The translations under genes and the position numbers were made by a program. The notes under the pieces are model-generated. The model ran no database searches. It was not told where the DNA came from and saw only the letters and a program-made list of their open reading frames with translations. From Prochlorococcus sp. AG-363-M21 (GTDB lineage: Bacteria; Cyanobacteriota; Cyanobacteriia; PCC-6307; Cyanobiaceae): a stretch of 64,000 nucleotides of DNA. This document shows positions 3,711 to 47,375 of this stretch, in pieces (the first letter of the stretch is position 1; the number at the start of each line of letters is the position of its first letter). The stretch is from contig QCFU01000004.1 of NCBI GenBank assembly GCA_003278305.1, positions 1 through 64,000 of the forward strand. The letters are read 5' to 3'.

Positions 3711-3755
3711 TTCATATTAATATTAATAGTAATAAAAATACATTGAGTATTGTTA

Positions 3756-5256: not shown

Positions 5257-5271
5257 ATTTAATTGCTATTA

Positions 5272-5652
5272 TCAAAATTTAAGCAGACTACCATTAAAGC
5301 CATTAGGTATATCTTGTGTCTTTTTTCTGGGTCCTGAAGTTTGTTTTGATGATTCTATTTTAAATCTTTTCCATAGGGTGATTGCATCTTTACTCATAGT
5401 TCTTTCTTTAAAACCGTTTACACCAAAATAGCTTTTGATCTGACTGGTGAAACTTACACTGTCTTCCATAAAACTATGATGCCCATAAAAGCTTTCATAA
5501 AATTTGTCAGAAAGCTTTTCAGATTCTTTGCAGCCTTCTATTGAATTTATGGAACAATAAGTTTCAGAGGCATCTGAAGGTAAGAATAATATAATTGGAC
5601 CTAGATTAAATAAAAATAGAAAGGACAGAATCGTTCTAAATTTAATATTCAT
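5272..5652 (-). CDS. small secreted protein of unknown function in pilin cluster
   Basis: Predicted 126-residue product starting at the ATG at 5652 (a longer frame begins at 5676, but the later start gives a cleaner signal peptide). A basic start and a hydrophobic stretch end near LPSDASETYC, resembling a signal peptide. The mature part is hydrophilic with two cysteines close together and a basic C-terminus. No family recognised and no prepilin motif. It sits between pilD and the FimT-like gene on the same strand, 15 bases before the latter, so a pilus-linked role is plausible from position only. Confidence 0.6.
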   Translation of the reverse strand: MNIKFRTILSFLFLFNLGPIILFLPSDASETYCSINSIEGCKESEKLSDKFYESFYGHHSFMEDSVSFTSQIKSYFGVNGFKERTMSKDAITLWKRFKIESSKQTSGPRKKTQDIPNGFNGSLLKF

Positions 5653-5743
5653 TAACCCAATTAGAGCACTTGCCACCTAACTATACTCAATTTTAGCTTA
5701 ATTAGCTATATACATTCACTATAAATTGACTTGACATGATTGG

Positions 5744-6568
5744 TTATTGATAATTAATTAAATACATAGCTTTAAAAAATCTAGCCCAAGCATCTTCTCC
5801 TAAAAGATAGACCAAGTAACTACCTACAGACAGATATGGCCCAAATGGGATCTTTTGCTTTCTTCTTATTACCCTTATTGCAATTAAAAATATACTTATA
5901 ACCCCCCCGATGTAAATGGCTAATAATAAACCCAATAGCATCCCCTTTATGCCAAGCCAACTTCCTATAAAGAACAGATATTTACTATCACCAAAACCAA
6001 AAGCTTGTTTTTTTATTATCAAAGCAATTAAAAAGGTTGCTATTTCAAGCAAAATAAAGCCTAAGCAACCAGAGAAAGTAAAATAGCAAAGAGCTTTTAA
6101 AGCTGTTAATAGATTATAATCTGAAGCACTTATAGTATTATATGATAAACCTATAATTGATCCAAATAATATAATATTATTAGGTATTATCATTAGATCT
6201 AAATCTATAAGAGATGCTATAAAGCATATAGTTGAGAATATAGATATTCCTATTAATTTCGTAAAAGTTTCTTCTTTTGTATAAGATAATGCTTGGCAAT
6301 TTAAGGCAAAAATTAGTCCAAGTGTTAATTCTACTAATGGATAGCTAAGGGGGATAGGCCAATTACAAAACCTGCATTTTCCATTTATTATTATCCAAGA
6401 TAGAATCGGTATATTGTCATACCAATTAAGTGTTTTTTTACAGTTATTGCAATAACTTGAAGGTGTAATTAATGACTCTTTAGCAGGTAATCTGTATCGA
6501 ACTACATTGGAAAAGCTTCCTATGCATATTCCTATCAATATATAGCTAATTTTAAATTCTAAATTCAT
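5744..6568 (-). CDS. pilD: prepilin peptidase PilD/GspO
   Basis: An integral membrane aspartic protease that cleaves and N-methylates prepilins. The 274-residue protein has an N-terminal helix (GICIGSFSNVVRYRLP), a zinc-binding tetracysteine domain (CNNC at about 40-43 and CRFC at about 65-68), and two catalytic aspartate motifs: one in the DLDLMIIPN segment at about 122-130 and GFGDSK at about 190-195. About seven membrane spans follow. It lies upstream of the prepilin genes on the same strand and would process all of them. Confidence 0.93.
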   Translation of the reverse strand: MNLEFKISYILIGICIGSFSNVVRYRLPAKESLITPSSYCNNCKKTLNWYDNIPILSWIIINGKCRFCNWPIPLSYPLVELTLGLIFALNCQALSYTKEETFTKLIGISIFSTICFIASLIDLDLMIIPNNIILFGSIIGLSYNTISASDYNLLTALKALCYFTFSGCLGFILLEIATFLIALIIKKQAFGFGDSKYLFFIGSWLGIKGMLLGLLLAIYIGGVISIFLIAIRVIRRKQKIPFGPYLSVGSYLVYLLGEDAWARFFKAMYLINYQ

Positions 6569-33921: not shown

Positions 33922-34041
33922 TTAGTAAATACCAGGGATAATCCAACCAAAAGTAATGTAATTAGTTGTGAGGGCGAATAAACCAATCATAGCAAGACGC
34001 CCATTAGTTTTTTCAGCGAAAGACCAGAAATCTTTATCCAT
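33922..34041 (-). CDS. hli: high-light-inducible protein (Hli), 39 aa
   Basis: Too short for a standard ORF list. The translation has one membrane helix carrying the chlorophyll-binding core AEKTNGRLAMIGLFAL (residues about 9-24: Glu, Asn, Arg of ExxNxR and the AMxG turn), then YITFGWIIPGIY. Hli proteins bind chlorophyll and carotenoid and protect photosystem assembly. Unlike its two neighbours it keeps the Arg (NGR) needed to pair with the Glu. Its ATG overlaps the stop of the preceding hli in a TAATG arrangement, so the two are translationally coupled. Confidence 0.9.
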   Translation of the reverse strand: MDKDFWSFAEKTNGRLAMIGLFALTTNYITFGWIIPGIY

Positions 34042-34148
34042 TAAAAAATTCCTGGAATTATTTGGCCTGTGGTTACATAAGCACCAAATGCTGCAACGAA
34101 ACCAAGCATTGCTGCCCAGCCATTAATTTTTTCTGCGTTAGGAGTCAT
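34041..34148 (-). CDS. hli: high-light-inducible protein (Hli), 35 aa
   Basis: Very short Hli product with core AEKINGWAAMLGFVAAF (about residues 5-21) and C-terminal YVTTGQIIPGIF. The Glu and Asn of ExxNxR are present, but Arg is replaced by Trp (NGW), a variant common in Prochlorococcus Hli proteins. The gene is upstream of, and shares one base with, the 39-aa hli. The TGQIIPG tail is nearly identical to that of the third hli, suggesting recent common origin. Confidence 0.9.
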   Translation of the reverse strand: MTPNAEKINGWAAMLGFVAAFGAYVTTGQIIPGIF

Positions 34149-34457
34149 AATAAAAACAAAGTTTTAGTAATCATGATTAGTTGGTTAGTTATAGACTCTT
34201 GGGCCATAACTAAGAAATATATTTCAAATCAAATAACTGATATAGCTTCAAAGTAAAGTAAAACTTAACTCTTGCTATAAGATAATTGATTTGTTTTTAT
34301 TATTCGAACTTATTTGGTTAAAGTACCAACTAGTTTGAATAATATACTTAACTTTATGTTTGACTTAATAGAGCTAATAAAGAAAAGTTGTTTTAATTGA
34401 TTTGCATGCAGAATTAATAAATTGCTGCATAGGCTTAAAAGGGTTTAACTCCACAAC
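34149..34457. other. intergenic region between hli genes
   Basis: 309 AT-rich bases. Should hold the minus-strand promoter of the overlapping hli pair; no clean -35/-10 pair stands out. A plus-strand 64-codon frame across the hli start looks like a shadow. Nothing else seen. Confidence 0.4.
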
Positions 34458-34601
34458 TTAAATCACACCTGGAATAATTTGACCTGTTGTCAAGTAAGCA
34501 CCAACAGCTGCCCAAAAACCCATCATTGCTGCCCAGCCGTTTATGCGTTCTGCAATCAGCTTTTCAGGCTCTACTTTTGGCTGACTAGTAGTTTTTTTCA
34601 T
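34458..34601 (-). CDS. hli: high-light-inducible protein (Hli), 47 aa
   Basis: A 17-residue soluble N-extension (KKTTSQPKVEPEKLI) precedes the Hli core AERINGWAAMMGFWAAV (about residues 17-33), followed by YLTTGQIIPGVI. As in the 35-aa Hli, the ExxN is kept and NGW replaces NGR. One membrane helix. It has its own probable promoter (34654-34683) and stands 309 bases from the next hli. Photoprotection or chlorophyll handling in the thylakoid is the family role. Confidence 0.9.
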   Translation of the reverse strand: MKKTTSQPKVEPEKLIAERINGWAAMMGFWAAVGAYLTTGQIIPGVI

Positions 34602-34653
34602 TTTAAAAATTTAACTAAAGGAAGAAAGGCCAACGGACGCTGACTTGTAACGA

Positions 34654-34683
34654 ACTATAACAGGTTTTATTACTGAGTGTGAA
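34654..34683 (-). promoter_or_regulatory. candidate sigma70-type promoter for the 47-aa hli
   Basis: On the minus strand, TTCACA (34683-34678), an 18-base spacer and TATAGT (34659-34654), giving a start near 34647 and a leader of about 46 bases to the hli ATG. The -10 is good, the -35 moderate. Confidence 0.45.
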
Positions 34684-35091
34684 GCATGAGCTGAAGAATT
34701 CCTCTGATAGTACAGAAATGTATTCTTAATTGAAGTATGGTACTGGGATAATAAGGCATTGAATAATTTATTCCTTATGATGTTATTACGCAAAGTGCAA
34801 AGTATTTCGGTAAATTCTGTATTTAAAATTACAATAGGAAAATAGATATAGATTCTTTATTCATTTTATAGATGCTTATTAAGCTAAACATAATTTGCCA
34901 ATTTTGGCTCTATATACTCTTTTGACTTGTATTACTCAGCAAGCATTTTACTGTTTTACTTAACTCCCTCTTCTATCATGCGATTGCCAATAAATTCAAG
35001 CTTTCCCCCAAGCTCTGTTATCCCTACGAAATTATTTCTTGATATACTCGTAATTACCTCTAATTATTAAAATGGCAGAGAGGTAATAGTG
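34684..35091. other. intergenic region, nothing recognised
   Basis: About 400 AT-rich bases between the divergent hli and DUF1651 genes. A 60-codon minus-strand frame covers 34611-34793 but its amino-acid composition looks like noise. No RNA structure or repeat noticed. Confidence 0.4.
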
Positions 35092-35120
35092 TTGACACAA
35101 ATATTTTAGATTATTATAGT
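35092..35120 (+). promoter_or_regulatory. strong sigma70-type promoter for DUF1651 gene
   Basis: TTGACA (35092-35097), 17-base spacer, TATAGT (35115-35120): consensus -35, near-consensus -10, optimal spacing. The start of transcription would be near 35127, leaving a leader of about 18 bases before the ATG at 35145, without an obvious Shine-Dalgarno sequence. Confidence 0.8.
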
Positions 35121-35144
35121 ACAAATATACTACGAGACTCTAAA

Positions 35145-35390
35145 ATGACTCATCAGGGTTGGCTGCGTGATTCGAAAAATCGTTGGGCACTTCATTTTTT
35201 GCAAGTTCCAAAAGCTTTTGACAATGAAATCTATGTCTATATAGATAAGTGGAATGTTTCAAGCATTGGCACCCCAGAAAAATTTATTGATAGAAGAAAA
35301 GTCGCTTTGTTGCCTGCTATTGAGACTTGGAACGAGCTTGTTGGACTTGGTTGGTCAATCGTTGATAAGCAGTTTGGCATGTTTGCATGA
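35145..35390 (+). CDS. DUF1651 family small protein
   Basis: An 81-residue soluble protein rich in Trp. GWLRDSKNRWALHFLQ near the N-terminus, YVYIDKWNVSSIGTPEKF in the middle, and RRKVALLPAIETWNELVGLG-W near the C-terminus match DUF1651, a family multiplied in marine picocyanobacteria with no known function. Preceded by the near-consensus promoter described at 35092-35120. Monocistronic. Confidence 0.82.
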   Translation: MTHQGWLRDSKNRWALHFLQVPKAFDNEIYVYIDKWNVSSIGTPEKFIDRRKVALLPAIETWNELVGLGWSIVDKQFGMFA

Positions 35391-35656
35391 ATTAACTCTT
35401 TGATATAGTTCTATTTCTGATATTGACTACTCTTATCCTGCCTTTCTATCTAGTATAAGCAACAAGCATATATGTCAATCACAGAGTCATTCCCTTAGGC
35501 TTTATAGCCTTCCCTATATAGGTATAGATTTTAATCTTTTAGGAAAATTATTTTATAGACTCGTAATATTATCTTGCTAGTACTAAACTTTGTATACGCT
35601 ATTTGCTTAGAAATTGGTTTTTGTCTATTTGCAGGGCTGTTTTCTTTTCACACTTA

Positions 35657-35680
35657 ATTCATTGATTCATTGATTCATTG
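35657..35680 (+). repeat. ATTCATTG octamer, three perfect tandem copies
   Basis: Three back-to-back copies of ATTCATTG at 35657-35664, 35665-35672 and 35673-35680. The array ends 2 bases before the ATG at 35683, where a ribosome-binding site would normally be. Confidence 0.9.
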
Positions 35681-35682
35681 GC

Positions 35683-36036
35683 ATGGTCTTTTTTCAATCT
35701 TTACTCAGTATTTTACTTGTTCTTCACCCTTCTCCACTTTTTGAATGTGACGGTGAACCACTTACAGCGACTATAAGAAACAACTTAAATGGTGATTTTG
35801 CTTTGGTCAAAGATCTAGATAAAATAGATGAAGGTTCCTTTGTTGTTCTTGAATGGAAAGACCTATCTCTCATGCTGCCTATTTCTTTTCAAGTAAGTGA
35901 AATTTCTTTTACAGATAAGAAGTGGTTATGGAGCTATAAGGATCAAACAAATGGCCTGCACATAGATAAACCTCGACTAGCACAACTACTTCCTCGTGGT
36001 GAAATAATTGAATATCAATGTAGCCTTCCCAGTTGA
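35683..36036 (+). CDS. small exported hypothetical protein
   Basis: A 117-residue product. The hydrophobic N-terminus (about 1-20, FFQSLLSILLVLHPSPLF) looks like a signal peptide, followed by CDGEPLTATI and a beta-rich domain with several Trp (VVLEWKDLSLMLPISF, KKWLWSYKDQTNG). Cysteines at about 22 and 113 could bond. Reading starts directly after an octamer tandem repeat that replaces the usual ribosome-binding region. Family not recognised. Confidence 0.65.
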   Translation: MVFFQSLLSILLVLHPSPLFECDGEPLTATIRNNLNGDFALVKDLDKIDEGSFVVLEWKDLSLMLPISFQVSEISFTDKKWLWSYKDQTNGLHIDKPRLAQLLPRGEIIEYQCSLPS

Positions 36037-36108
36037 CTAGACAGTTAGTAACTATTTTAATTTTTGTGAACTATATTAGGTAGTCTTATCTAATTTTTTT
36101 ATATGTAT

Positions 36109-36315
36109 TTAGCTTTCTTTAAGAAGATAAAGAATCTCAAGATCTTGTCTTGATTCAGCAATCCTTTTTCGCAGGAATGAGATAGCTGATTCATTCATTC
36201 TTGATTCTGCAATTAGTTTCTCCGCTGCTTGCAAAGCATGTTCTATATTTTTGATTTTTAGTTTGAGTAGCTCCGTGTTACTGCTACAGGACTCAAGAGT
36301 ATATCTATCAATCAT
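36109..36315 (-). CDS. small coiled-coil hypothetical protein
   Basis: A 68-residue, highly helical, charged protein (ELLKLKIKNIEHALQAAEKL and FLRKRIAESRQDLEIL). It is likely a short coiled coil, cytoplasmic, with no signal peptide. It is 4 bases downstream of the small membrane protein gene on the same strand, so they may be co-transcribed. Family unknown. Confidence 0.55.
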   Translation of the reverse strand: MIDRYTLESCSSNTELLKLKIKNIEHALQAAEKLIAESRMNESAISFLRKRIAESRQDLEILYLLKES

Positions 36316-36319
36316 ATTT

Positions 36320-36505
36320 TTACCACCATCTTATTCGGTCTGGCTTATCCCTTTCAATCCTTTTAAGAACAATAATCAAACTAAGAATAATTAGTGGGCC
36401 TAAGAATGCGCTTATGCCTATAAATGCTTTTATTGATGGATCGAGACTAGCCAAATGATTATTAGCCATTGAATTAATTATCATTTTAGGAATCTCCAAA
36501 TACAT
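36320..36505 (-). CDS. small membrane protein, unknown
   Basis: A 61-residue frame with one strong membrane helix (about 27-47, FIGISAFLGPLIILSLIIVL) and a very basic C-tail (KRIERDKPDRIRWW), suggesting an inside-facing C-terminus. A shorter start at the Met of MANNHLASLD (about residue 13) is possible. Followed after 4 bases by the coiled-coil gene. Confidence 0.55.
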   Translation of the reverse strand: MYLEIPKMIINSMANNHLASLDPSIKAFIGISAFLGPLIILSLIIVLKRIERDKPDRIRWW

Positions 36506-36781
36506 CGTTAAAACGTATTGAATTGCAATTACTACAATGAATTCTCTCTATGAAGTATGATTGGTTCAAATGGTTCATTTTCGTCAATGGCTAACAAGGA
36601 CAAGATCTTTTTTAATAGATATTAGCTTATTCTATCGAACTCTTTTTTGTTAGATTACAAGCATTATTGAAATTATTTAGAATTACTTTATTAGCGTCTC
36701 ACAGTTTTGAGATCTAACTATTGTAGATCAAATCTTTGCATCTTAGATTAAGCTAGATCTAAATAGCAATTAACTACCTCA

Positions 36782-37108
36782 ATGTCTCGAATATCAATTA
36801 ATCTTAGTGCAAAGGTTGATGCTATGATCGATCAGCTTCAGAAAAAAATCATTAATCGACGTCGTAAAAAGCTTAAAATTCAGGAAGTCCTTTCAACGCT
36901 TCTAGAAAGGGGGGCAAATTCTCAATCTGATAAATGTTCTGTTGCTTCATCGAAAAATTTAATTAGCGATATTGAAAAAGCAGCTAAAACATCCAAAGCT
37001 CATGCGACTAAACCTAGCAACATATGTTCAGAAAAGTGGGCACTAATTCTTTCTCACTGTATACGCAAAAGTTTAACGTCTAGAAAACTGAATCAACAAC
37101 TTCTTTAA
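36782..37108 (+). CDS. small basic hypothetical protein
   Basis: A 108-residue, lysine- and serine-rich protein. The start (SRISINLSAKVDAMIDQLQKK) resembles a ribbon-helix-helix or coiled beginning, with a strongly basic stretch (INRRRKKLKIQEVL). Such features fit nucleic-acid binding, but no family is recognised, and the call is from composition only. It is 75 bases upstream of the rhomboid-like gene. Confidence 0.5.
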   Translation: MSRISINLSAKVDAMIDQLQKKIINRRRKKLKIQEVLSTLLERGANSQSDKCSVASSKNLISDIEKAAKTSKAHATKPSNICSEKWALILSHCIRKSLTSRKLNQQLL

Positions 37109-37183
37109 AAACAGTAGATAATACGTTTTTACTAACCAACTCCCCTGAAAAGGTTATTTACATTCACTCTTGGACGTTTTTTA

Positions 37184-37774
37184 ATGAATTTCTACCCTCA
37201 TAAAGATGATTGGCAATATGTTCTACCTTTTATAGCTATATCTATAGTTTTTTTGTTGACAGATATTTTTGTTGTTTTGGAAAAGATAAATCTTGCATAT
37301 ATATCTGGACGTCTAGTTTTAGAGCCTTATCGGTTAATAACTTCTCATTTTGTACATTCGAATTTTAGTCATCTCTTGGCTAATTCTGGTGGGATAGTTA
37401 TTTCTCGCTTTTTTTTTAAAGAATTAAACTTAAAAAATCGTTTCTTATTCTTAGCACTAACTGCTTTATTAATCCCTTTTCAAACTATATTTCAATGGAT
37501 ATGGGATATACAATTAACTAATAATTCTTATTCTGTATTAGTTGGATTTAGTGGAGTTCTCTATGGCATTGACGCGTTCGTTCTCTTATCCGCTTACTAT
37601 GGAAAGAAAACTTTCTTAGGCTCAAAAATTAACTTGTGTAGTAGTTATAGTGTCTACAGAGCTTCTTTAGTTATTACAATCTTAGGCTTGTTATGGTCTT
37701 TTATGCCTGGAGTTAGTTTCTCTGGCCATCTGACTGGCTTTATTAGTGGCGTAGCCCTATTCTTTTTAGGATAA
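37184..37774 (+). CDS. rhomboid-family intramembrane protease (rhombosortase-like)
   Basis: A 196-residue protein with about six membrane helices. The rhomboid landmarks are HFVHSNFSHLLAN (residues 55-67, with helix-2 His and Asn), the catalytic serine in GFSGVLYG (Ser123) and the catalytic histidine in FSGHLTGF (His182). GxSGVLxG is closer to the rhombosortase subfamily (which cuts GlyGly-CTERM proteins) than to GlpG (GASG), but the match is by eye only. No GlyGly-CTERM protein was seen in this window. Flanked by small unknown genes. Confidence 0.8.
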   Translation: MNFYPHKDDWQYVLPFIAISIVFLLTDIFVVLEKINLAYISGRLVLEPYRLITSHFVHSNFSHLLANSGGIVISRFFFKELNLKNRFLFLALTALLIPFQTIFQWIWDIQLTNNSYSVLVGFSGVLYGIDAFVLLSAYYGKKTFLGSKINLCSSYSVYRASLVITILGLLWSFMPGVSFSGHLTGFISGVALFFLG

Positions 37775-38020
37775 GAAAAAAATATTACTGCTATAACATA
37801 TGATTGAATAAAAAAACAATTAGAGATTAGATATCAGCTTTATCAAGTGAATCCATCGAACTATACTGGTTGGTAGGATATTCAAATATGGTACTAATAA
37901 TTAGTAGGTGTTGATCATTTAATTGTCTACTAAGTAGTTGGTTTAGGACTTTTATATAGCAATACTTGACAAAAACATCTATTCTAAATTTATTGATATT
38001 AACTTGTTATGCCGTACGAC

Positions 38021-38260
38021 TTAATTTTTAAAATTCTTTTGAGCACATTTTTTTGCTGAGCTGTTTTGGTCTTTACCTTCGTCTATTATTGCTTTTAGAG
38101 CACAATCACAGAAACCTTCTATTGAACTTTCTTTGGCACCTGCCACTTCTGGATTTGATTGGGCCGAAAGGATGCAAGCAGTTAAGTCTTCAGGGTTGTA
38201 TGCCATAACCTTTGGTGCCAATGCAAGCAATAGCAAATACAAAGTGATCAATAACTTCAT
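38021..38260 (-). CDS. small secreted cysteine-containing protein
   Basis: A 79-residue product with a clear signal peptide (MKLLITLYLLLLALAPKVMA) and a mature part of about 59 residues. Four cysteines are visible: Cys-29 region TACILS, the FCDCALK pair and KKCAQK near the C-terminus, enough for two disulfides. Family unknown. Stands alone between the rhomboid-like gene and a small membrane protein gene. Confidence 0.6.
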   Translation of the reverse strand: MKLLITLYLLLLALAPKVMAYNPEDLTACILSAQSNPEVAGAKESSIEGFCDCALKAIIDEGKDQNSSAKKCAQKNFKN

Positions 38261-38456
38261 TAGTAATTAGAGGATTAATTTTTTTATTTTATCTTTAAAT
38301 TGTTGCTTAGGTTGCAGAAGTTGATATGTATCATATTTTACTTTGGGTTCCTTCTCTAGGGATGTGAATTTTTCCGATATTACTGCTTATGTAAAATCAA
38401 GTATCATGTTGACTCAAAATAACTTTTTTAGTTACTATTACGCAAAAAACTTTGTC

Positions 38457-38639
38457 ATGAACTCATTTGGATTTAATCGATATGGTTTAGATAGAGCTGG
38501 TATTCACTGGGCACAGCATCTTGCTATGACAATTGTTTCATTGCTAATTTTCTTAATTGCTTTGGACAAGGCAGTTCCTGCTTTCCATAATCTCTTAATC
38601 TCATCATTGTATAAAATTGAATGTAGTGGGTTGTTTTGA
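38457..38639 (+). CDS. small single-span membrane protein, unknown
   Basis: Frame is open from 38343 (TTG), but the ATG at 38457 is preferred: 60 residues starting MNSFGFNRYGLD, with one membrane helix (about residues 23-41, AMTIVSLLIFLIALDKAV). A possible promoter (TTGACT near 38409, then TACTAT 18 bases later) would fall inside the longer version, which supports the shorter one. ATG at 38406 is another option. No family recognised. Confidence 0.45.
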   Translation: MNSFGFNRYGLDRAGIHWAQHLAMTIVSLLIFLIALDKAVPAFHNLLISSLYKIECSGLF

Positions 38640-38922
38640 AATAGTATTCGTATCCATAGGTTCTTATAGAATCTTCCTTTAAAAATCTAAGACCAAATAA
38701 ATCTTCGTTTCTTTTTTACGCTTATTAAATATATAAATATAAAAATTTGTTTTTTGTCTAGGTATTGATTTGGGCCACTCTCTGTCATATCTGTGTTTAT
38801 TGATATTGGCCCTTCATAATTGACTTGTCTTAGCCTGGCTTCTATGTTTTTTTGAGGTTTAAGAAAGAAAGCGTCTTTTAGGATTTTTTTTGTTATTATT
38901 AAAGCAGAGGATGATTTAAACA

Positions 38923-39162
38923 ATGAAAAAGGTTAAATATCCTGAATGGGTGCCTTGGGATGGCGGTCCTACTCAGTTGCAAGCAAATGATGATGAATGG
39001 GTAATGCAGAAAGGTGAAAAAGAAGTTATCTTCAGCAAGAATAAGCTTGACAGTAATTACTTTCATGTAAGAAGTGCAGAGAAGGAAGAGCAAATCTATA
39101 CTTTTCAAGCGAGATACCTTTATCAAGAACTAGTGAATAAGGGATTTATCCTTAAAGCGTAA
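38923..39162 (+). CDS. small soluble hypothetical protein
   Basis: A 79-residue charged protein with several aromatic residues (YPEWVPWDGGPTQLQ; DEWVMQKGEKEVIF; TFQARYLYQELVNKGF). No signal or membrane segment. Minus-strand frames cover the same place (38687-38923 and 38899-39126) but their sequences look less protein-like. The start follows directly on a long gap. Confidence 0.6.
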   Translation: MKKVKYPEWVPWDGGPTQLQANDDEWVMQKGEKEVIFSKNKLDSNYFHVRSAEKEEQIYTFQARYLYQELVNKGFILKA

Positions 39163-39242
39163 ACTTAATTTAGGTTAGAAGCTACTTCTCTAGATACTTT
39201 TTCGTCCTTCCACCGATATTTCAAGTTTCTTTTTGCGAGACC

Positions 39243-39521
39243 TTGCTGACCAAAAGCGCAAAGAGAAGTACATTAGTACTAGTATGCTTGCTTGGTTGCG
39301 TGGGCCCAGCTTTTTTGCGAGTTCGTTCTGGCGATTGTGTTCTTGTTTCTAGCGAGATCGACGGTTTTCCTTATTTTGGAAAGATTTTAAAGTGCATTGG
39401 GAGTTCTAAGGACTCTCGTGCTTGGACTCTTTTTCAAGTATTTGATATTGATAATGGCTATATAAATATTATAAATGCATGTGATGTTATTGAGATTCTT
39501 AGCTCATCAAAAAGCAACTAG
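39243..39521 (+). CDS. DUF3104-like small protein
   Basis: A 92-residue frame with no ATG start; TTG at 39243 is the first possible start. RVRSGDCVLVSSEIDGFPYFGKI and SRAWTLFQVFDIDNGYINIINACDVIEIL (both given by their ends in this text) fit the beta-barrel pattern of DUF3104, a marine picocyanobacterial family with no known function. The first 20 residues are hydrophobic, so either a signal-like segment or a misplaced start is possible. Confidence 0.55.
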   Translation: MLTKSAKRSTLVLVCLLGCVGPAFLRVRSGDCVLVSSEIDGFPYFGKILKCIGSSKDSRAWTLFQVFDIDNGYINIINACDVIEILSSSKSN

Positions 39522-39872
39522 TTAGAAAAGTCTGAATCTAAAATTTTGGAGTATCTAAGATATAGCGCTATGTTTTAATATTTAAGCCTAATTAAAGTGA
39601 AGTTTTTTCTTTATAGAGTATTTATTTTCTATTTAGAAAATTCCAGAACAATTAGAGGAAAATTCAATTAGAAATAAATACTTATATATTTAGAGAATTG
39701 ATTTCTTTTAGTCACATTTTTTATATTAGGTAATAACTTATATCATTAGATGTTTTTGTTGTTCCAGCTTTCGTTAATAGTTAAGTATTAATGTATGCTG
39801 CATGACTTTTCCCCAAATAATATAGTACATTACATATTAGTAAATTTTCATCGAAGGATGTATAGGGGTTTT
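39522..39872. other. intergenic region, AT-rich
   Basis: Roughly 350 bases before the secreted-protein gene when its inner start is used. Contains no convincing ORF; a few T-runs near 39600-39660. Presumed promoter region for the gene at 39873. Confidence 0.35.
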
Positions 39873-40742
39873 ATGAACATTAAAAAATCTGCAATAGCTA
39901 TATCTACTTCCCTTATAGGACTGGGTTCTTTGGCAGGAGGACTTTTGCCACAAGCATCAGCAAGTAACTTTCTCTATCAAGGAAAATGTGGATTTTTAGT
40001 AAGTTCAAATTTCCAGGAAAAATGTAATGCTTTATTCACAAAGACAATGCTTACGATTATGCCAAAGGGTTCTAAGCAAATACGAATATGGCCTCAGCAG
40101 ATTTCATATGTTTCCCTTGCTACAAAGAAATCACTTAAAATGAATGAAGATTTAGTCTTATGGAAAAAAGCTGCTGGAAAAACAGGCATCCTATGGTGGC
40201 GTAGAGATCGTATACCTCAATGGGTAATTGATGTTACTGCCAAGGAGCAGGAAGATCATCAATTTAGTATTGGTTTTGTAGATAAGTATAAAAAACCTCA
40301 AATCGTTTTATTTGTACTAAATGATAAAGAACAAGCTTCTGGAATGATAGGTATGCTCGAATCCTACTCTGGACTATCATTAGGCCAAAGTAGAACACCA
40401 GGATCATATTTAGGACCTACACTTACAAGAAACTTATCAAGAGAGGCAACTCGTAAGGCAAGAAGACTTGCTGGTTTATGCTCACAAGATATGTTTGATG
40501 ATGCAGAACCAATCGCATTAGAATTGGATAGTTATATTGAAAATATTATTGATGAAGTTTCGATTTTTTCTGGTACAGAAAAATTTACTTACAAGTTACG
40601 TAAAACATATGATGAAGCAATAAGTTATTGTGATGATCAGATTTTAAGGGCACATAGAGAGCGAGAAGCAGAGAGAAATGAAATAGCAGAAGAGAAAAGA
40701 GCAGAAGCCAGGGAAGCTTTTGATATGCTTGCAGAATTCTAG
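39873..40742 (+). CDS. secreted protein of unknown function, 289 aa
   Basis: The best start is the ATG at 39873 (MNIKKSAIAIS); longer frames begin at 39858 and 39795. A signal peptide (about 1-29) ends near QASASNF. Mature sequence: a Cys-containing YQGKCGFLVSSNFQEKCNAL segment, a Trp-rich middle (WPQQISYV, ILWWRRDRIPQWV), and a C-terminal helix with a highly charged coiled-coil end (HREREAERNEIAEEKRAEAR). Family not recognised. It is 9 bases upstream of a second exported protein on the same strand and faces the CsgG-like gene. Confidence 0.65.
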   Translation: MNIKKSAIAISTSLIGLGSLAGGLLPQASASNFLYQGKCGFLVSSNFQEKCNALFTKTMLTIMPKGSKQIRIWPQQISYVSLATKKSLKMNEDLVLWKKAAGKTGILWWRRDRIPQWVIDVTAKEQEDHQFSIGFVDKYKKPQIVLFVLNDKEQASGMIGMLESYSGLSLGQSRTPGSYLGPTLTRNLSREATRKARRLAGLCSQDMFDDAEPIALELDSYIENIIDEVSIFSGTEKFTYKLRKTYDEAISYCDDQILRAHREREAERNEIAEEKRAEAREAFDMLAEF

Positions 40743-40751
40743 TCAATCAAA

Positions 40752-41495
40752 ATGAAAGTATTTGCAAGAAGCAGTCTTCGTTCGTTGGGCTCTTCAGTTG
40801 TTTTTTTAACATTATTAATTCAACACCCTGTTGATTCTTTCCCCTTTAAAGGATTTGATACAGACAATAGGATAAAAGAGTCTTCTTCAGGTTTTGTTGA
40901 TTCACAGACTGGGGATATAATTGATAAGGAAATAGATGAGTACGGAAACTTAAGAGATTGCACTAGGGGCAAATCATCCTTTAGAAGAAAACTACCTAGT
41001 TGTAATGAAATAGTAGATCGACGCCAGAAAAGATTAAACGATTCAAGAAAAAAATCATGGGGTCTATTGCGTAACGAACTTTCAGGAAAGAATATTTTTA
41101 TTCTTCCTAATGGTAGTAAAATAAGAGTAAGTTCTTCAGTCAAATATAATGATGAGACTCAATATGGTAGAGGTGGCGGAGAGCTGATAATCAATGCTTA
41201 TGTCGAAAAAGTAAGCTCTAATCTTACAACATTTGAGAATCTATTTATTAATCGAGGTTCCAGATTAGAGATATCTTTCTTAGATAGGGATGGTTTTGAG
41301 ATGCTTGATAAATTGATAATTCCTTTTCATATTGAGACTGGTTTGGCTAGAAATATAAGTTATCAGAAGAAGATAGGTAAGACAGCAGATGACTTGCTAG
41401 GAATTAAGGTTCAATCACGATTACCTATTAGAAGTGTTAGAGAGTATAAGGAAATAAAAAGAATTGGCGTATCAGCTAAGTTTGGAAATAAATAG
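40752..41495 (+). CDS. secreted protein of unknown function, 247 aa
   Basis: A signal peptide (about 1-28, ending near HPVDSFPF) precedes a hydrophilic mature part. Features include a DSQTGDIIDKEIDEYGNLRDC segment, a Cys pair around residues 73-84, and a beta-rich C-terminal half (about 105-235) with many short strands (IRVSSSVKYNDE; GELIINAYVEKV). Family unknown. Co-oriented with the preceding secreted protein after a 9-base gap and convergent with the CsgG-like gene, 25 bases away. Confidence 0.65.
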   Translation: MKVFARSSLRSLGSSVVFLTLLIQHPVDSFPFKGFDTDNRIKESSSGFVDSQTGDIIDKEIDEYGNLRDCTRGKSSFRRKLPSCNEIVDRRQKRLNDSRKKSWGLLRNELSGKNIFILPNGSKIRVSSSVKYNDETQYGRGGGELIINAYVEKVSSNLTTFENLFINRGSRLEISFLDRDGFEMLDKLIIPFHIETGLARNISYQKKIGKTADDLLGIKVQSRLPIRSVREYKEIKRIGVSAKFGNK

Positions 41496-41520
41496 TATTC
41501 TTGCTATCTAAAAATATTTG

Positions 41521-42294
41521 TTAGAATAAATCTAATGAATCATTAGATTCTTTGCGTTGTAAGTCTTTGGCTTTATAAACTTCTACACATTCATCTTTTA
41601 GGTAAAGAACGCAATCAAGATATGAAGCAATTTCTTGCATAGCTTTTCTTATAACACGAGTTTTGTTTACTCCCTCAGCTTTCTTCTGGGATTGTCCAAG
41701 GCTGACTCCCTGAAAAGTACCAGAAAAAGCTTGACTTTTAGACTCTTTAGAAGCTTTTCCTTCAATAGTTCTACTGTAAGCAATAGTTCCGGTAGATGTA
41801 TTTACTACCTTTAAATCAAAAGAAACATAAAATGAAGATATTTTTGTTCCTCCGCCAACAGCGAACCCGCCATAACCAATTGTTTGAGCATCATCACCTG
41901 TACTTGATTCTTCAAAGTCAGTTAAAGATGCCAAAATTATGTACTTGGCTTGGTTGAGGTTGTTTTTTTTGGCAGCAGTTTTTTTATTAATACCTGTCAT
42001 ACCAAGTTCCTTTCTTAACTCTTCTAAGGCCTCTGTATCTCTTTCAAGGACTGTAAAGTGACCTGTGCTAGTCAGTTCTGTTGATAAAACATTAGCAAGT
42101 TTTTCAGGGAATGAGCTTCTAAACCAAGGGGCACCACTTCGATCTTTGACCTGTCTTACTGCAACAGTTATAGGTTTCATTGGACGCAGCCCTTCTCCCT
42201 TGACAGGTTTGATGAGAGGGATTGATGATATTAAGGTTATTGTCGGAATAATTATTGCAGTAATAGCTTTAGATGAAAAAGAAGTACTAACCAT
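41521..42294 (-). CDS. CsgG/curli-assembly-like protein
   Basis: A 257-residue exported protein. The N-terminal hydrophobic stretch (about 9-32, AITAIIIPTITLISSIPLI) is signal-like. The following domain (about 40-190) matches the CsgG fold: ITVAVRQVKDRSGAPWF, LANVLSTELTSTGHFTVLER, LNQAKYIILASLTDFE, and FYVSFDLKVVNTSTGTIAYS. CsgG is an outer-membrane lipoprotein pore in curli secretion, but this one has no lipobox cysteine; its cysteines are near the C-terminus. So an exact curli role is doubtful. It faces two secreted unknowns. Confidence 0.7.
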   Translation of the reverse strand: MVSTSFSSKAITAIIIPTITLISSIPLIKPVKGEGLRPMKPITVAVRQVKDRSGAPWFRSSFPEKLANVLSTELTSTGHFTVLERDTEALEELRKELGMTGINKKTAAKKNNLNQAKYIILASLTDFEESSTGDDAQTIGYGGFAVGGGTKISSFYVSFDLKVVNTSTGTIAYSRTIEGKASKESKSQAFSGTFQGVSLGQSQKKAEGVNKTRVIRKAMQEIASYLDCVLYLKDECVEVYKAKDLQRKESNDSLDLF

Positions 42295-42473
42295 TTTTCT
42301 TTGACTATAAATTCAAAACCATAAAGATCATATCTCTAAACACTCCTTACAAGTCTATAAATGAAAAAAAAAACTAAGATATTTCAACAAAATTGCATTA
42401 ACTCTGATTTTAGATCTGCAGATATATCTTCTTTAAAATATTTAGTAAAGAGATTTAAAGTAATCTAAAATAA

Positions 42474-42656
42474 CTAATTAGCTTCTATTTTCCTTCTCAT
42501 ATCATGCATTTTTTCTAATTCATCATAAATAGCTTTTAATTTGCTCTCAATATGATCTGTATTGCTTAAATACTTTAGAGATTGCAGTGTCTTTAACAAG
42601 TGTTCTTTGGTTTCAATGATTCTTCTACACTCTGTACTGCCAGCTTCGTAGGACAT
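42474..42656 (-). CDS. small helical hypothetical protein
   Basis: A 60-residue charged protein that is probably one long helix or coiled coil (IIETKEHLLKTLQSLKYL; IESKLKAIYDELEKMHDM). No signal or membrane span. The ratio of charged residues and lack of bias argue for a real small gene, but there is no known family. Confidence 0.5.
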   Translation of the reverse strand: MSYEAGSTECRRIIETKEHLLKTLQSLKYLSNTDHIESKLKAIYDELEKMHDMRRKIEAN

Positions 42657-42753
42657 TTAATTAAACTAACTCTAATAAATATTATTCTTATACAGGAATC
42701 CATTAAGTGATAAATGATACAGCAGAAGTCTTCTTTGTTTTAAGGGTTGCTAC

Positions 42754-42840
42754 TTAACCGATGGAAACCATTACCAAGAAGGTTGTACTCATTAGGATTA
42801 ACCCCACCGCAGCTGTAGCAGCCAAAAGAGAGATATTCAT
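42754..42840 (-). CDS. 28-aa hydrophobic micro-protein (single membrane helix)
   Basis: ATG at 42840-42838 to TAA at 42756-42754. The product is almost wholly hydrophobic (ISLLAATAAVGLILMSTTFL and following), a single membrane helix with tiny ends. Photosystem and cytochrome b6f subunits such as PetL, PsbM or Psb30 have this size, but the sequence does not match one I can name. No clear Shine-Dalgarno. Could also be a chance frame. Confidence 0.4.
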   Translation of the reverse strand: MNISLLAATAAVGLILMSTTFLVMVSIG

Positions 42841-43200
42841 CTAAAAAAGTAGATCTATAAAAATCTTAAGCTTTTCTAAAGGATTGTCAGGATCTTTATG
42901 CATTCTCTATACAGAATGTAATTATTTTTCAATAAATAGGCTTAACTTTCCAAGGTCTTTGTTTTTTGCTTGATATTTATAGTTGAGTATAAATTTTAAG
43001 ATTATCCAAGTTTTTTTAAACCTAAATCATAGTATTGATATAGCTTTAGTGGGTTCTATTTGATAGTCATATTAAGCTTTAATAAGCCTTCCTCTTATTA
43101 AGAGTTATTCTCTATTTTAATGCCGATAATCGTAATTATTATTAGTGATATATGAATCATTTGGAACTTTAGTTTTGTATCATTTGTACAATTGAACTTG
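42841..43200. other. intergenic region, nothing recognised
   Basis: 360 AT-rich bases between two minus-strand small genes. No ORF with protein-like composition, no repeat and no RNA structure noticed. Confidence 0.4.
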
Positions 43201-43392
43201 CTAGGTTAATCCATCTTGTTCTAGCTCAACTCTCTTCCTTAAAGCCTGATTTAACTTGCCAGCAATAAATGGAATATGAACTGAGTACTTTCTAAGTTCT
43301 ATTCTTTCTTTCAAGGAGACACTAGAACCACTGCCAAGTCTTCTAATGATTTCTTCTAATTTCTTTCTTGTACCCGTAGTTAAAAGCCTCAT
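43201..43392 (-). CDS. small basic hypothetical protein
   Basis: A 63-residue, Arg- and Lys-rich, helical protein (TRKKLEEIIRRLGSGSSVSL; KLNQALRKRVELEQ) with no signal peptide. Its composition suits nucleic-acid or ribosome contact, though that is a guess. Family not recognised. About 70 bases from the lipoprotein gene on the same strand. Confidence 0.6.
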   Translation of the reverse strand: MRLLTTGTRKKLEEIIRRLGSGSSVSLKERIELRKYSVHIPFIAGKLNQALRKRVELEQDGLT

Positions 43393-43461
43393 TTAACTTA
43401 ATCAAGTTTTCTAATCATATTAATTCTGTGAAAAAACACAAGAGTAGTAATTTATTAATAA

Positions 43462-43887
43462 CTATTGAATCAACTCTTCAGAACCTTCTACTAGTTCACT
43501 ACTTGATTCTTCCGCTTTGTCAATTTGTATAATTGTATCTTTTTCTAAAGTGTACATTATCTTTTCTCCCATCAAGTCGGGAACTGTGATTTTACAACCT
43601 TTGTCTCTTTCTAGATTACAGTTTCGGGTCGCTTTAACAGTTTTCCAAGTGCAAGGTACTTCAGATACAGATTCGTTGACTACAGTCCATCCATTATCTA
43701 GATAATCTTGAATAGTATCTTTATTGCATGAGATTGATACCTCAATTGATTCAGTCACACTTTTGTTCAAAAGCTCTTCCTTTGAAGAAGGCTTTAATTT
43801 ATCTCCAAGCTGTTCTTTTACAGGACAACCAGTCAAAAGGACAGTTAATGGTAAGAAGTAAATCAGATATGATTTGAATTTAAGCAT
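43462..43887 (-). CDS. small lipoprotein, unknown function
   Basis: A 141-residue protein with a lipobox LLTGC (Cys21) after a hydrophobic signal (SYLIYFLPLTVLLTG), so it is probably lipid-anchored. The mature domain has four further cysteines (ISCNKD, VPCTWK, RNCNLERDKGC) and an acidic C-terminal tail. No known family. Membrane-anchored in the periplasm or lumen is inferred from the lipobox. Confidence 0.65.
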   Translation of the reverse strand: MLKFKSYLIYFLPLTVLLTGCPVKEQLGDKLKPSSKEELLNKSVTESIEVSISCNKDTIQDYLDNGWTVVNESVSEVPCTWKTVKATRNCNLERDKGCKITVPDLMGEKIMYTLEKDTIIQIDKAEESSSELVEGSEELIQ

Positions 43888-43923
43888 CTTAGGATTTAAA
43901 GTCTTTCGTATTCTATAGTGAGA

Positions 43924-44133
43924 TTACTTTTTTGTTTGTTTGTTTGATTTTTTTGATGATTTTGGTTCTATAACAAGTAATAAATCTTCCATTTGATCCA
44001 TTAGTTTTTTGATTTCATCAGGTTCTGGTAACTTTAATTCATCGGCAACAGCTAGATGTATTACCCTTAACTCTGACCTTAATTTCTTAAGGTATTTTTT
44101 TACTTCTTCTTTTTTTTCTTTTGCAGTAGCCAT
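43924..44133 (-). CDS. small charged hypothetical protein
   Basis: A 69-residue highly charged, alpha-helical protein (KEKKEEVKKYLKKLRSEL, then ELKLPEPDEIKKLMDQMEDL) with a Lys/Ser-rich C-tail. No signal. Real-looking composition but no family. Same strand as the lipoprotein gene, 36 bases upstream of it. Confidence 0.6.
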   Translation of the reverse strand: MATAKEKKEEVKKYLKKLRSELRVIHLAVADELKLPEPDEIKKLMDQMEDLLLVIEPKSSKKSNKQTKK

Positions 44134-44265
44134 TAGTTATTAAGATGATAAAGAATCTAGAAACCCATTAACGCTATAGAATCATCTAGATATTAAGCAA
44201 TTATAACATAATGAACCTTCTACATCTTATAATAACTGAATTCAATACAAGAGATTGGATCATTT

Positions 44266-44412
44266 ATGAAATTACTAAAATCGGGTTATGAAAAAATATG
44301 GGTACCTGTTTTAGGCAGAATACTTATGTACTTTTCTTCTTTGATAGAGGGTAAAAAAATTTCGGAAAAGCCTTCCTATAAATTTGATGAAGATAAATTT
44401 GATTTCAAATAA
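44266..44412 (+). CDS. micro-protein, 48 aa
   Basis: A plus-strand frame from ATG 44266. The product starts MKLLKSGYEKIWVPVLGRIL, has an amphipathic or membrane-edge helix, and a charged C-terminus (SYKFDEDKFDFK). It ends 2 bases before the convergent stop of the next minus-strand gene. The tight fit between neighbours favours a real gene. Unknown function. Confidence 0.5.
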   Translation: MKLLKSGYEKIWVPVLGRILMYFSSLIEGKKISEKPSYKFDEDKFDFK

Positions 44413-44414
44413 CT

Positions 44415-44783
44415 TTAATTTAGTGTCATTGATTCCATAGATCCACCATTACAGTAATTAACTGCTAGTTGCTTTCTATATGGTTTTATCTCTTCAGATT
44501 GAAGTAATTTCATAGTGGCATTTATACACTTATTTTTATTCCTAGATTCCTGTATTATTGGAAAGAAATAAATCAGAAACACAAATACAATAAGAAGAGA
44601 TTTGTACTGGCTCTTTTTTTTCACTATATGATTAGATGTTTTCTTTTGAAAGCCTAAGAGTTTAACAAGTAATTTTTCAGGAAGACCTATTTGAACAAAA
44701 AGTAGTTCAATCCACCATGGTAATTTCTTCTGGCCTTTTTTATTGTTGAAATTAGGTCTTATTTTTTTTGAAGGTTCTTCCAT
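44415..44783 (-). CDS. single-span membrane protein, unknown
   Basis: A 122-residue protein with a basic N-terminal half (EEPSKKIRPNFNNKKGQKKL, then LPWWIELLFVQIGLPEKLL), a membrane helix at about residues 63-79 (SLLIVFVFLIYFFPII) and a C-terminal domain with two cysteines (NKCINA; NYCNGGS). Family not recognised. Convergent with the 48-aa micro-protein gene. Confidence 0.6.
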   Translation of the reverse strand: MEEPSKKIRPNFNNKKGQKKLPWWIELLFVQIGLPEKLLVKLLGFQKKTSNHIVKKKSQYKSLLIVFVFLIYFFPIIQESRNKNKCINATMKLLQSEEIKPYRKQLAVNYCNGGSMESMTLN

Positions 44784-44985
44784 TTTGATCTTTGTTCCTA
44801 GATGTTGAATGTTGGCTTTAGAGTATATAACTTAAATTATATACCAAATATATCTTTATATTGTCTCCTTGCCTGCTTTATATAGTCTTATTACCCTTTT
44901 CAAAGCTGATATATGTTGACTTTTAATTCCAAATCTTTGATATGTAATCATTTTACTGTATTGTTTAAACAATTAAAAGCCTTCG

Positions 44986-45255
44986 ATGGTAAAAAGAAGA
45001 AGAAAGCTTTCTCCGGAATACGAGAAGCTAATTACAAGATCATTGAAGGAAGTTGAATTGATTACGGCTAAAATCAATGATATATATGATGATGATATAC
45101 GTGAAGAATATACTATTGCTTTTAGAGCTGTAAAGCTTCAGTTGGTTTCTCTAAGCCAAACCTATAAGGAAATTGGTTTTAACGACGATTCAATCCCTCT
45201 TATCCAGAAGTACCAAGAAAGTTTAAATAGTTTTATTAATGAATATGAAATTTAG
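44986..45255 (+). CDS. small helical hypothetical protein
   Basis: An 89-residue soluble protein, basic at the N-terminus (VKRRRKLSPEYEKLITRSLK) and acidic in the middle (INDIYDDDIREEYTIAF). No signal. Upstream, TTGACT near 44918 with a GATATG-like -10 could be its promoter. Its last 17 bases overlap the start of the next gene, so translation is likely coupled. Confidence 0.55.
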   Translation: MVKRRRKLSPEYEKLITRSLKEVELITAKINDIYDDDIREEYTIAFRAVKLQLVSLSQTYKEIGFNDDSIPLIQKYQESLNSFINEYEI

Positions 45256-45604
45256 AGATCTTTTATTCAAAAAAAGATACTTTATATCTTCTTTATTCAC
45301 TTTACACTGCATCTTTACACCATTATCTTATTCTGAAATTAAAATTATTCTTGATACAGATTCACAAAGTAAGCAAGACCAAAGAAGTGAATATGGACCA
45401 TTATATTTATATTTTGAATATTTAATTAAAAAAGGAGACAAATATATATTACCTGCGAGAAATTCTCAGGGTCAAAATATTTATTTAGCTTTAAGCTGTT
45501 CAAAGCAAAAGATTAATGTGTCCACCGATAGCATGACTTGGAAATCGTGGCTTTCTCCCAGCAAACCTTTTGAATATAGGTTGATTAATGAAATATGTAA
45601 TTAA
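45239..45604 (+). CDS. small exported hypothetical protein
   Basis: A 121-residue product (start 45239, or the second Met at 45245). A signal-like N-terminus (about 1-32: basic, then FISSLFTLHCIFTPLSYS) precedes a beta-rich, tyrosine-rich domain (YGPLYLYFEYLIKKGDKYIL). A Cys pair near residues 83 and the C-terminus (ALSCSKQ; NEICN) may bond. Overlaps the preceding gene by 17 bases. Unknown family. Confidence 0.6.
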   Translation: MNMKFRDLLFKKRYFISSLFTLHCIFTPLSYSEIKIILDTDSQSKQDQRSEYGPLYLYFEYLIKKGDKYILPARNSQGQNIYLALSCSKQKINVSTDSMTWKSWLSPSKPFEYRLINEICN

Positions 45605-45636
45605 TACTTTTAATCAGTCGGTATTTTTATATAATA

Positions 45637-45846
45637 TTAGTACTTCCATGGTATAACCTTGATTTCTATAGCTTTACCCATTCCTTGATTTTGATTGGTG
45701 TCTTGAACTCCTTGAAATTCAATCATGCACTGGCTATAATTTTTTGTCTTTTTGCAGAACTTTTCGATTTCTAATTTGTCAATAGAATAGGTATTTGCAA
45801 TAGGTACACAGAATATTAAACCAAGGCAGATAAGGCTATTTTTCAT
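45637..45846 (-). CDS. small secreted hypothetical protein
   Basis: A 69-residue product with a signal peptide (MKNSLICLGLIFCVPIANTY) and a mature part with two cysteines (EKFCKKTKNYSQCMIEF) spaced to form a disulfide loop. Similar in build to the small secreted protein at 38021-38260. Function unknown. Convergent with the preceding exported-protein gene. Confidence 0.6.
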   Translation of the reverse strand: MKNSLICLGLIFCVPIANTYSIDKLEIEKFCKKTKNYSQCMIEFQGVQDTNQNQGMGKAIEIKVIPWKY

Positions 45847-45952
45847 GCTTTTATTATGCCAAATTATTTAAGAGCTGCAAAAAATTTTGATTTATTTAAT
45901 GATTCCAATCTTTAGGCTTATTAAAATATAAATTGATAAATCGGTAATCTTC

Positions 45953-46090
45953 ATGAAAGATAGTATCAATCTTATAGACCAAGCAATGGATGATATAAAG
46001 GAAGATATGATTAGAGACATAATTAATACTTCACCATATAGCGATGAGCAGAAGTTCAATCATTCAGAAATTCTGAAGACTCAAGAATAA
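45953..46090 (+). CDS. micro-protein, 45 aa
   Basis: ATG at 45953 to TAA at 46090, a soluble, acidic, probably helical 45-residue product (SINLIDQAMDDIKEDMIRDI, and FNHSEILKTQE at the end). It ends 3 bases before the convergent DUF2103 stop, the sort of packing expected of a genuine gene. Function unknown. Confidence 0.5.
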   Translation: MKDSINLIDQAMDDIKEDMIRDIINTSPYSDEQKFNHSEILKTQE

Positions 46091-46093
46091 TAA

Positions 46094-46375
46094 TTATCTC
46101 TTTTCTAAGACTGAATTAAGATGTTGTTCTAAAGTTGTTTTTGATAATTTAGTAATAATATACACCTCTTGAGCCATCCTTCCTTTGCGGGCAATTAGTT
46201 TGAACCCTCCTTGTGTCTCTTTTGTGATCCTTAAAATTAATTTTTCAGAATTACTTTTAACTCTTTTTATTATTCCTGGAGTGATGCTTTTTATAGATTC
46301 ATTACGTGAAATTATTGTTAGACGGTCTATTAAGCCCTCTATGTGAGTGCTGTGATTCTTTATGATTCTTCCCAT
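46094..46375 (-). CDS. DUF2103 family protein
   Basis: A 93-residue protein, MGRIIKNHSTHIEGLIDRL at its start, SITPGIIKRVKSNSEKLILR in the middle, and FKLIARKGRMAQEVYIIT near the end. This matches DUF2103, a cyanobacterial/archaeal family annotated as predicted metal binding. The His in the HSTH segment fits that label; no biochemistry is inferred from sequence. Divergent from petN. Confidence 0.78.
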   Translation of the reverse strand: MGRIIKNHSTHIEGLIDRLTIISRNESIKSITPGIIKRVKSNSEKLILRITKETQGGFKLIARKGRMAQEVYIITKLSKTTLEQHLNSVLEKR

Positions 46376-46456
46376 ATCTTTTACTACTACCCCCTATTTC
46401 TGCTTTAGTGTATTGAACTTTGCTAAGCTATAATAACAATAATATTTGAGATCAGG

Positions 46457-46558
46457 ATGCTATTTACTTTTGCGTGGGCTTCTTTGGCTGCCATCTTTAC
46501 TTTCTCCATTGCCATGGTTGTCTGGGGAAGGAATGGAGATGGAACAATTGATTTCTAG
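46457..46558 (+). CDS. petN: cytochrome b6-f complex subunit PetN
   Basis: A 33-residue protein, too short for a usual ORF cut-off: [20 protein letters not shown], then [13 protein letters not shown]. This is the well-known PetN, a single-helix subunit (VIII) needed for assembly of the cytochrome b6-f complex in the thylakoid membrane. An AGG sits near the start. The next ORF begins inside its 3' end in another frame. Confidence 0.95.
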
Positions 46559-46700
46559 CCTTGTTGAAGGGTTCAAAAATTTGACGCCTGCCAATTATTT
46601 AGCTATAGCAGTACTTTCATTATTAGTTTTTATTACCCTCTCTGTGTTGTATATATCTATTGTTGATTATAAGGATAAAAGGAGAATGATGAATAAGTAG
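46533..46700 (+). CDS. small single-span membrane protein overlapping petN
   Basis: Starts at ATG 46533 (or 46539) within the last codons of petN, giving 55 residues: a polar N-part ([20 protein letters not shown]), one membrane helix (about 21-43, [18 protein letters not shown]) and a basic tail ([11 protein letters not shown]). The GGGAAGG sequence just upstream could be its ribosome-binding site. A longer frame from 46446 runs through petN out of frame and is not favoured. The 26-base overlap implies coupled translation with petN. Confidence 0.65.
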
Positions 46701-46706
46701 ATATAT

Positions 46707-47375
46707 TTAAGAGACTTTTTTCTCTTCTCTTGATTTTCTTCTTTTTGCTTCCTCTGCGATATTTATTTTGATTAGCTCTTCCATCTTCTTAACTTTATCT
46801 ATATTGCTAGTATATAAATTTATGTCTTTATAGAGTCTATCTTGATTGATATCTAGTGATTTTGTGATGGCCTTGATGAAATTATCTTTATCTTTATCTT
46901 TGTTTTTGGTTGGTTCAAAACCTAAAAATACGATTAAAAGGAATAAACCTATCCCTGATAACCGGGAGTAGTAATTATCCTTTTGGAATCCTATTTCCTT
47001 TACAAAGAAATTTAATATTTCTTTTTCTTCAGTATGTTCTAATTCATTTAGATGTTTTACAAGAAGATCCTTTTGGTCAATAATTTTATTATATTTTTCA
47101 TTGATTATAGCTGGATCAAAGTTAGTTGAATTGCAAATTGCTGAAAATAATTTATTTGTATGAGCTTCTGGTTTGTAACCCTTAGTGAGATCTCTATAGG
47201 CTTTAACTAATCCAAATGCAAATAATGAGTCAATTTTAAAATCTTTCTGATTATGTAATAAGTTTAACTCAACTATAAATTCATCCACTATTCGTCTATA
47301 GAGTGCTGGTATTACATAATCAAACTCCTTGTGGAATTTTGCTTTGCTATCTGAGACTGTTTGCCTAATACTCAA
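46707..47375 (-). CDS. psb29: photosystem II biogenesis protein Psb29/Thf1
   Basis: A 222-residue soluble, helical protein starting at TTG (TVSDSKAKFHKEFDYVIPAL then YRRIVDEFIVELNLLHNQ), with SLFAFGLVKAYRDLTKGYKP and a C-terminal charged coil (KKMEELIKINIAEEAKRRKS). This is Psb29/Thf1, which supports photosystem II stability and is reported to affect the FtsH thylakoid protease complex. No in-frame ATG exists upstream (a TAA intervenes). Divergent from clpP, with ftsH further on. Confidence 0.9.
   Translation of the reverse strand: MSIRQTVSDSKAKFHKEFDYVIPALYRRIVDEFIVELNLLHNQKDFKIDSLFAFGLVKAYRDLTKGYKPEAHTNKLFSAICNSTNFDPAIINEKYNKIIDQKDLLVKHLNELEHTEEKEILNFFVKEIGFQKDNYYSRLSGIGLFLLIVFLGFEPTKNKDKDKDNFIKAITKSLDINQDRLYKDINLYTSNIDKVKKMEELIKINIAEEAKRRKSREEKKVS

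Follow-up and report, generated by a model that had tools for sequence, protein, structure and literature searches.

Three neighbouring genes of Prochlorococcus sp. AG-363-M21, here called A, B and C, form a real unit that is inherited together, and their products probably make up an outer-membrane complex that has not been described before and is not curli. The reading towards which we lean is that of a dedicated envelope complex, analogous in its logic to HfaABD of Caulobacter, in which an outer-membrane-associated CsgG-type ring operates with dedicated exported partners. The genes lie in the window, the whole 64,000-nucleotide stretch of DNA that was analysed, which comes from a 1.16 Mb draft genome that is 70% complete and whose relatives are Prochlorococcus strains and single cells. 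The three open reading frames, the gaps of 9 and 25 bases between them and the convergence of C on B had been described in a sequence-only reading and are confirmed (Table 1). Further in-frame ATG codons lie upstream of gene A at 39795 and 39861, but 39873 is most plausibly the start, since the signal peptide begins there, as does the alignment with relatives.

Table 1. Features of the A-B-C module and of the slot that holds it (window coordinates unless a contig is given)
Feature	Position	Strand	Description and basis
Gene A	39873-40742	+	289 aa from conserved ATG; ORF list
A signal peptide	residues 1-30, 39873-39962	+	ends ..ASA|SNF; read by eye
A predicted PH-like domain	residues 33-166, 39969-40370	+	AF2 and Foldseek
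A helical tail	residues 182-288, 40416-40736	+	AF2 prediction
Gene B	40752-41495	+	247 aa; starts 9 bases past gene A; ORF list
B predicted all-beta domain	residues 110-243, 41079-41480	+	AF2
Gene C	41521-42294	-	CsgG-family protein, 257 aa; convergent with B, 25 bases from B stop; Pfam, profile
CsgG domain of C	residues 38-230, 41605-42183	-	Pfam
TM1-equivalent stretch of C	about residues 131-156, 41827-41904	-	aligns with transmembrane hairpin 1 of E. coli CsgG
Conserved C-terminal tail of C	residues 225-257, 41524-41622	-	YLDCxLYxxxxC ... DLF; conserved Cys 228, 236
Upstream edge of exchange slot	39243-39521	+	small ORF kept in G066 and G016; synteny
Downstream edge of exchange slot	42474-42656	-	small ORF kept in G066 and G016; synteny
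Alternative module of G016	L061:7922-11884		CsgG convergent with genes for a 577 aa protein and for two smaller exported ones

Protein C belongs to the CsgG family, as had been proposed, with a match to the Pfam CsgG model (PF03783) at E=1.3e-29 and 103.5 bits, where the cut-off is 20.8. A profile built from 14 relatives of C also matches the E. coli CsgG structures (E=3e-12), the TM1 hairpin stretch included, although the similarity between the two proteins is distant. In a canonical CsgG channel each subunit carries a lipobox cysteine at the signal peptide and two transmembrane hairpins, TM1 and TM2, and the subunits assemble into a nonameric ring. C has a signal peptide without a lipobox cysteine and contains no cysteine at all in residues 1-60. 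This had been taken as a peculiarity of C, but none of 39 Cyanobiaceae CsgG proteins (C and 38 relatives) has a lipobox, whereas the E. coli control was positive, and its absence is, on these sequences, the rule among picocyanobacterial CsgG proteins. CsgG-family proteins of Synechocystis and Synechococcus 7002 have been detected in several envelope fractions (PMC7880944) and one of Anabaena in the exoproteome (PMC10936207).

The case for a unit is carried by co-occurrence, gene order and phylogeny. Across 300 Cyanobiaceae genomes A is present in seven and B in the identical seven, an agreement with a chance probability of about 2e-14, and all seven also contain a CsgG relative (chance about 9e-5). 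Wherever both are present, A and B lie side by side on the same strand. The CsgG gene converges on B and lies 1-56 bases after it in six genomes, and G093 has the order CsgG-C6-A-B on a single strand, so the genes do stay together across genomes, the comparison by which the sequence-only reading had proposed to judge them. In G066 B is found at one contig end and CsgG at another, as expected of an assembly break inside the module. AG-449-J16 is missing B and retains A and CsgG, with 385 ORF-free bases between them, which argues that B can sometimes be dispensed with. Trees built separately for A, B and C recover the same groups, with the window beside G066, MIT 9107 together with AH-716-J09 and G067, G041 apart and G210 on a long branch, and the order of the module genes is maintained at 36-72% protein identity. 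Against the nearest relative, dN of the module genes is 0.16-0.24, that of the housekeeping gene purK being 0.18, and dS of the module genes is about 1.6 or saturated. A scan for promoters and terminators gave matches no more frequent than chance.

The module is rare and patchy, being confined to a sparse and distantly related subset of Prochlorococcus rather than found in picocyanobacteria at large; in the large genus of G067 only 3 of 200 genomes have A. The earlier idea of an unrecognised picocyanobacterial system thus holds only in part. A literature search of partial coverage found no account of a CsgG module in Prochlorococcus, which on that coverage is weak evidence of novelty.

Within the genus of the window the module occupies a slot bounded by two small open reading frames. 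In G016, which belongs to the same genus, A-B-C is replaced between the orthologues of these edges by CsgG'-C5-C3-C3, where the CsgG comes from a different clade and converges on C5 and the two C3 genes. The slot therefore holds alternative CsgG modules of the same convergent layout, as judged from three genomes. C5, a protein of 577 aa with repeats that are weakly FlgT_N/LPP20-like, has weak matches to FlgT_N and LPP20 (best E 0.0017, below the curated cut-offs in the tabulated member), and the CsgG of this module has a weak match to FlgT_M. A conserved slot outside the genus was ruled out, as the flanks differ there.

When 36 CsgG proteins of Cyanobiaceae are placed in a tree with E. coli CsgG as the outgroup, CsgG phylogeny largely follows the partner genes. 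The clades comprise the A/B-linked (9 rows, 99/99), the C6-linked (7 rows, 99/98) and the C7-linked proteins (5 rows, 90/86), together with a clade (99/98) holding those linked to C5 and C3. G093 is the exception, having its A-B pair beside a C6-clade CsgG. C6 is itself a divergent CsgG relative or paralogue (profile comparison, E=2.6e-6). C7 is a relative of A, one full-length C7 matching it at E=4e-8, and the two families match over the helical part (E=1e-6). It adjoins CsgG in the six Synechococcus-type genomes that have close CsgG matches. Six larger-genome relatives that were checked have CsgG without any such partner family within 11-16 kb. C9-type small proteins near some CsgG genes look like A by eye, but were rejected as relatives on a negative profile comparison. 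In MIT 9107 and AH-716-J09 the locus consists of five genes, C6, a full CsgG, A, B and a TM1-less CsgG (L049:1754-6024 and L068:4083-8354).

Protein A is predicted to be secreted and to consist of a PH-like domain followed by a helical tail. The AF2 model (pLDDT 76.6) places the helices after the PH-like domain, and almost all matches found by Foldseek in the PDB are PH, PTB or RanBD (Ran-binding) structures, with a probability of ~1.00, a best E of 5.8e-4 and TM-scores of about 0.5-0.6 against the PH targets. The predicted elements include the seven-stranded beta sandwich and closing C-terminal helix that define the PH-like superfold. Four cysteines, at positions 39, 51, 203 and 253, are invariant in the alignment. 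A was confined to Prochlorococcus in a pattern scan of 84,980 species and to Cyanobiaceae in a profile scan of 390 cyanobacterial genomes. The C-termini of A (40700-40742, ..DMLAEF) and C (41521-41560, ..DSLDLF) resemble each other in having a charged helix, hydrophobic residues and a terminal aromatic, which could be a shared recognition tail or chance.

Protein B contains an invariant Cys70/Cys84 motif, CTxGxSSxxRxLPSCN. Its AF2 model is all-beta (pLDDT 76.1) and finds no credible fold match in the PDB with Foldseek, every probability being low. As first supposed, neither A nor B matches any family in Pfam, NCBIfam, PHROGs or PADLOC, and for A, B, C6 and C5 a sequence search gave no credible relative of solved structure. 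The signal peptides of A and B, read by eye, mark both as exported-type proteins, in agreement with the earlier description, and conserved cysteine pairs in A, B and C alike fit an extracytoplasmic location for all three. A lipobox is found in 5 of 8 B proteins, being absent from those of the window, G066 and G067, and hence the predicted lipid anchor of the module, where there is one, is on B rather than on C.

In the complex that we favour, C, like other CsgG-domain proteins, would form an oligomeric ring at the outer membrane, on its periplasmic side. A would be secreted to the periplasm and dock on the ring through its helical part, leaving the PH-like domain exposed; this part may well bind CsgG because it is just what most C7 proteins retain beside their CsgG. 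B would be a partner at the outer membrane, rich in beta structure and in most relatives held by a lipid anchor, and is proposed to help fix the ring in place, as C itself is not lipid-anchored. The whole might then display A, and perhaps B, at the outer membrane or pass them across it, much as HfaABD does as an anchor in Caulobacter. Counting against this scheme are the loss of B in AG-449-J16, the C6-clade CsgG beside A-B in G093, the lack of a lipobox in the B of the window, the weak hydrophobicity of the putative hairpins of C and the distance of C from E. coli CsgG. The earlier proposal of an export or surface system keeps its exported-type partners here, but the role itself stays putative, given that CsgA, CsgE and CsgF are absent and that some A/B-linked CsgG copies have no TM1 hairpin.

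The TM1 stretch is deleted from the A/B-linked CsgG of MIT 9107, AH-716-J09 and AG-449-J16 and from one of the two copies of G067, which lends some weight to a different picture in which C and its paralogues would be soluble rings in the periplasm, comparable to PelC or to the CsgG-like middle domain of FlgT. Such rings would act as a scaffold or gate for something else, with nothing exported through them and with A and B as structural partners. The missing lipobox in all 39 CsgG proteins, the absence of curli substrates and accessory proteins and the LPP20/FlgT_N-like proteins of the sister module would all be in keeping with this. However, each of the four TM1-less copies shares its cluster with a TM1-bearing CsgG, so that the cluster as a whole keeps TM1, and no PelB-like or flagellum-like partner is seen beside the genes. 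A ring that is not a pore is a possibility to be taken seriously, if not the one we would choose. The pairing of TM1-less and TM1-bearing proteins would be consistent with mixed rings as well as with the two kinds dividing the work.

The C of the window does have a TM1-equivalent stretch that aligns with E. coli CsgG, together with an aromatic PWW/PWF motif near what we take to be the position of the E. coli constriction loop. These features would suit a plain secretion channel, with C as a CsgG-like outer-membrane pore and A, perhaps also B, as a substrate that is released or deposited on the surface. Moreover, HfaA and HfaD need HfaB to reach the surface (PMC6707917). Against this, the predictions for A and B are of folded domains with cysteines, in contrast to the unfolded CsgA; CsgE and CsgF are absent; and TM2 of C aligns poorly with E. 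coli CsgG. A plain channel is considered unlikely. A crude beta-amphipathicity analysis of TM1 and TM2, in which both putative hairpins are weakly hydrophobic, did not decide the matter. Least probable by some distance is that A, B and C are ordinary accessory envelope genes hitch-hiking in an island without forming a complex, for although their sparse distribution (7/300), the differing flanks outside the genus and the swapping of slot content would allow this, the constant gene order at such divergence, the agreeing trees and the partner-specific CsgG clades speak against it.

Other surface-related genes occur in the window and among the relatives. The region 34000-47000, between purK-like and clpP-like genes, is dense in short genus-specific open reading frames, several with a signal peptide or lipobox (for example 43462-43887, LLTGC), and at 847-6568 the minus strand carries a type IV pilin-like cluster, which encodes a protein resembling prepilin peptidase and several N-termini of prepilin type (GFTLVELI). 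In G067, two CsgG genes in tandem and A-B are immediately preceded upstream by genes for very long RTX-like repeat proteins (L047:3-7618), a 447 aa partial and one of 1929 aa, which may represent a surface protein. A phage or defence origin of the module was rejected, as A and B are absent from IMG/VR by pattern scan and C has only weak PHROG matches, to families of unknown function, with no PADLOC match.

Few photosynthetic cells on Earth are as abundant as Prochlorococcus, and the phages, grazers and partners that it encounters depend on what its outer surface presents. An outer-membrane module that is specific to strains and can be swapped, in genomes so streamlined, is a candidate source of surface variation, and new partners for CsgG would help to separate a general role of the ring from its role in curli. 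We suggest, tentatively, that marine picocyanobacteria have diversified CsgG-ring machines, whose subfamily-specific exported partners are exchanged as cassettes at fixed slots, and that the A-B-C type, a CsgG ring with a secreted PH-like protein and a lipoprotein, is an undescribed class.

Of the known systems, curli (type VIII secretion) shares with the module a CsgG domain with an alignable TM1 region, but C has no lipobox and the gene order and partners are unlike those of curli. The search for CsgA-, CsgE- and CsgF-like genes, which the sequence-only reading had named as a check, gave none over the cut-off in the seven genomes, curlin repeats included, while the E. coli control was over it; four of the seven genomes are near complete, and that of the window is 70% complete. 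A curli system is accordingly rejected. FlgT has a CsgG-like middle domain, and the CsgG and C5 of G016 weakly resemble FlgT and, for C5, LPP20, but A and B are unlike the FlgO/FlgP/FlgT and LPP20 families, and Prochlorococcus is not known to have flagella. PelC has a CsgG-like fold. It forms a ring in the periplasm at the outer membrane (PMC12141448), as is proposed for C, but is itself a lipoprotein and acts under the PelB barrel, and no gene resembling PelB was seen next to the module. HfaABD differs in that HfaA is curlin-like and HfaD adhesin-like, whereas the prediction for A is a PH-like fold and for B an all-beta one that matches nothing known; neither has a family match, and the seven genomes contain no curlin repeats. 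It nevertheless resembles A-B-C in its layout, a CsgG-like protein encoded with two exported partners.
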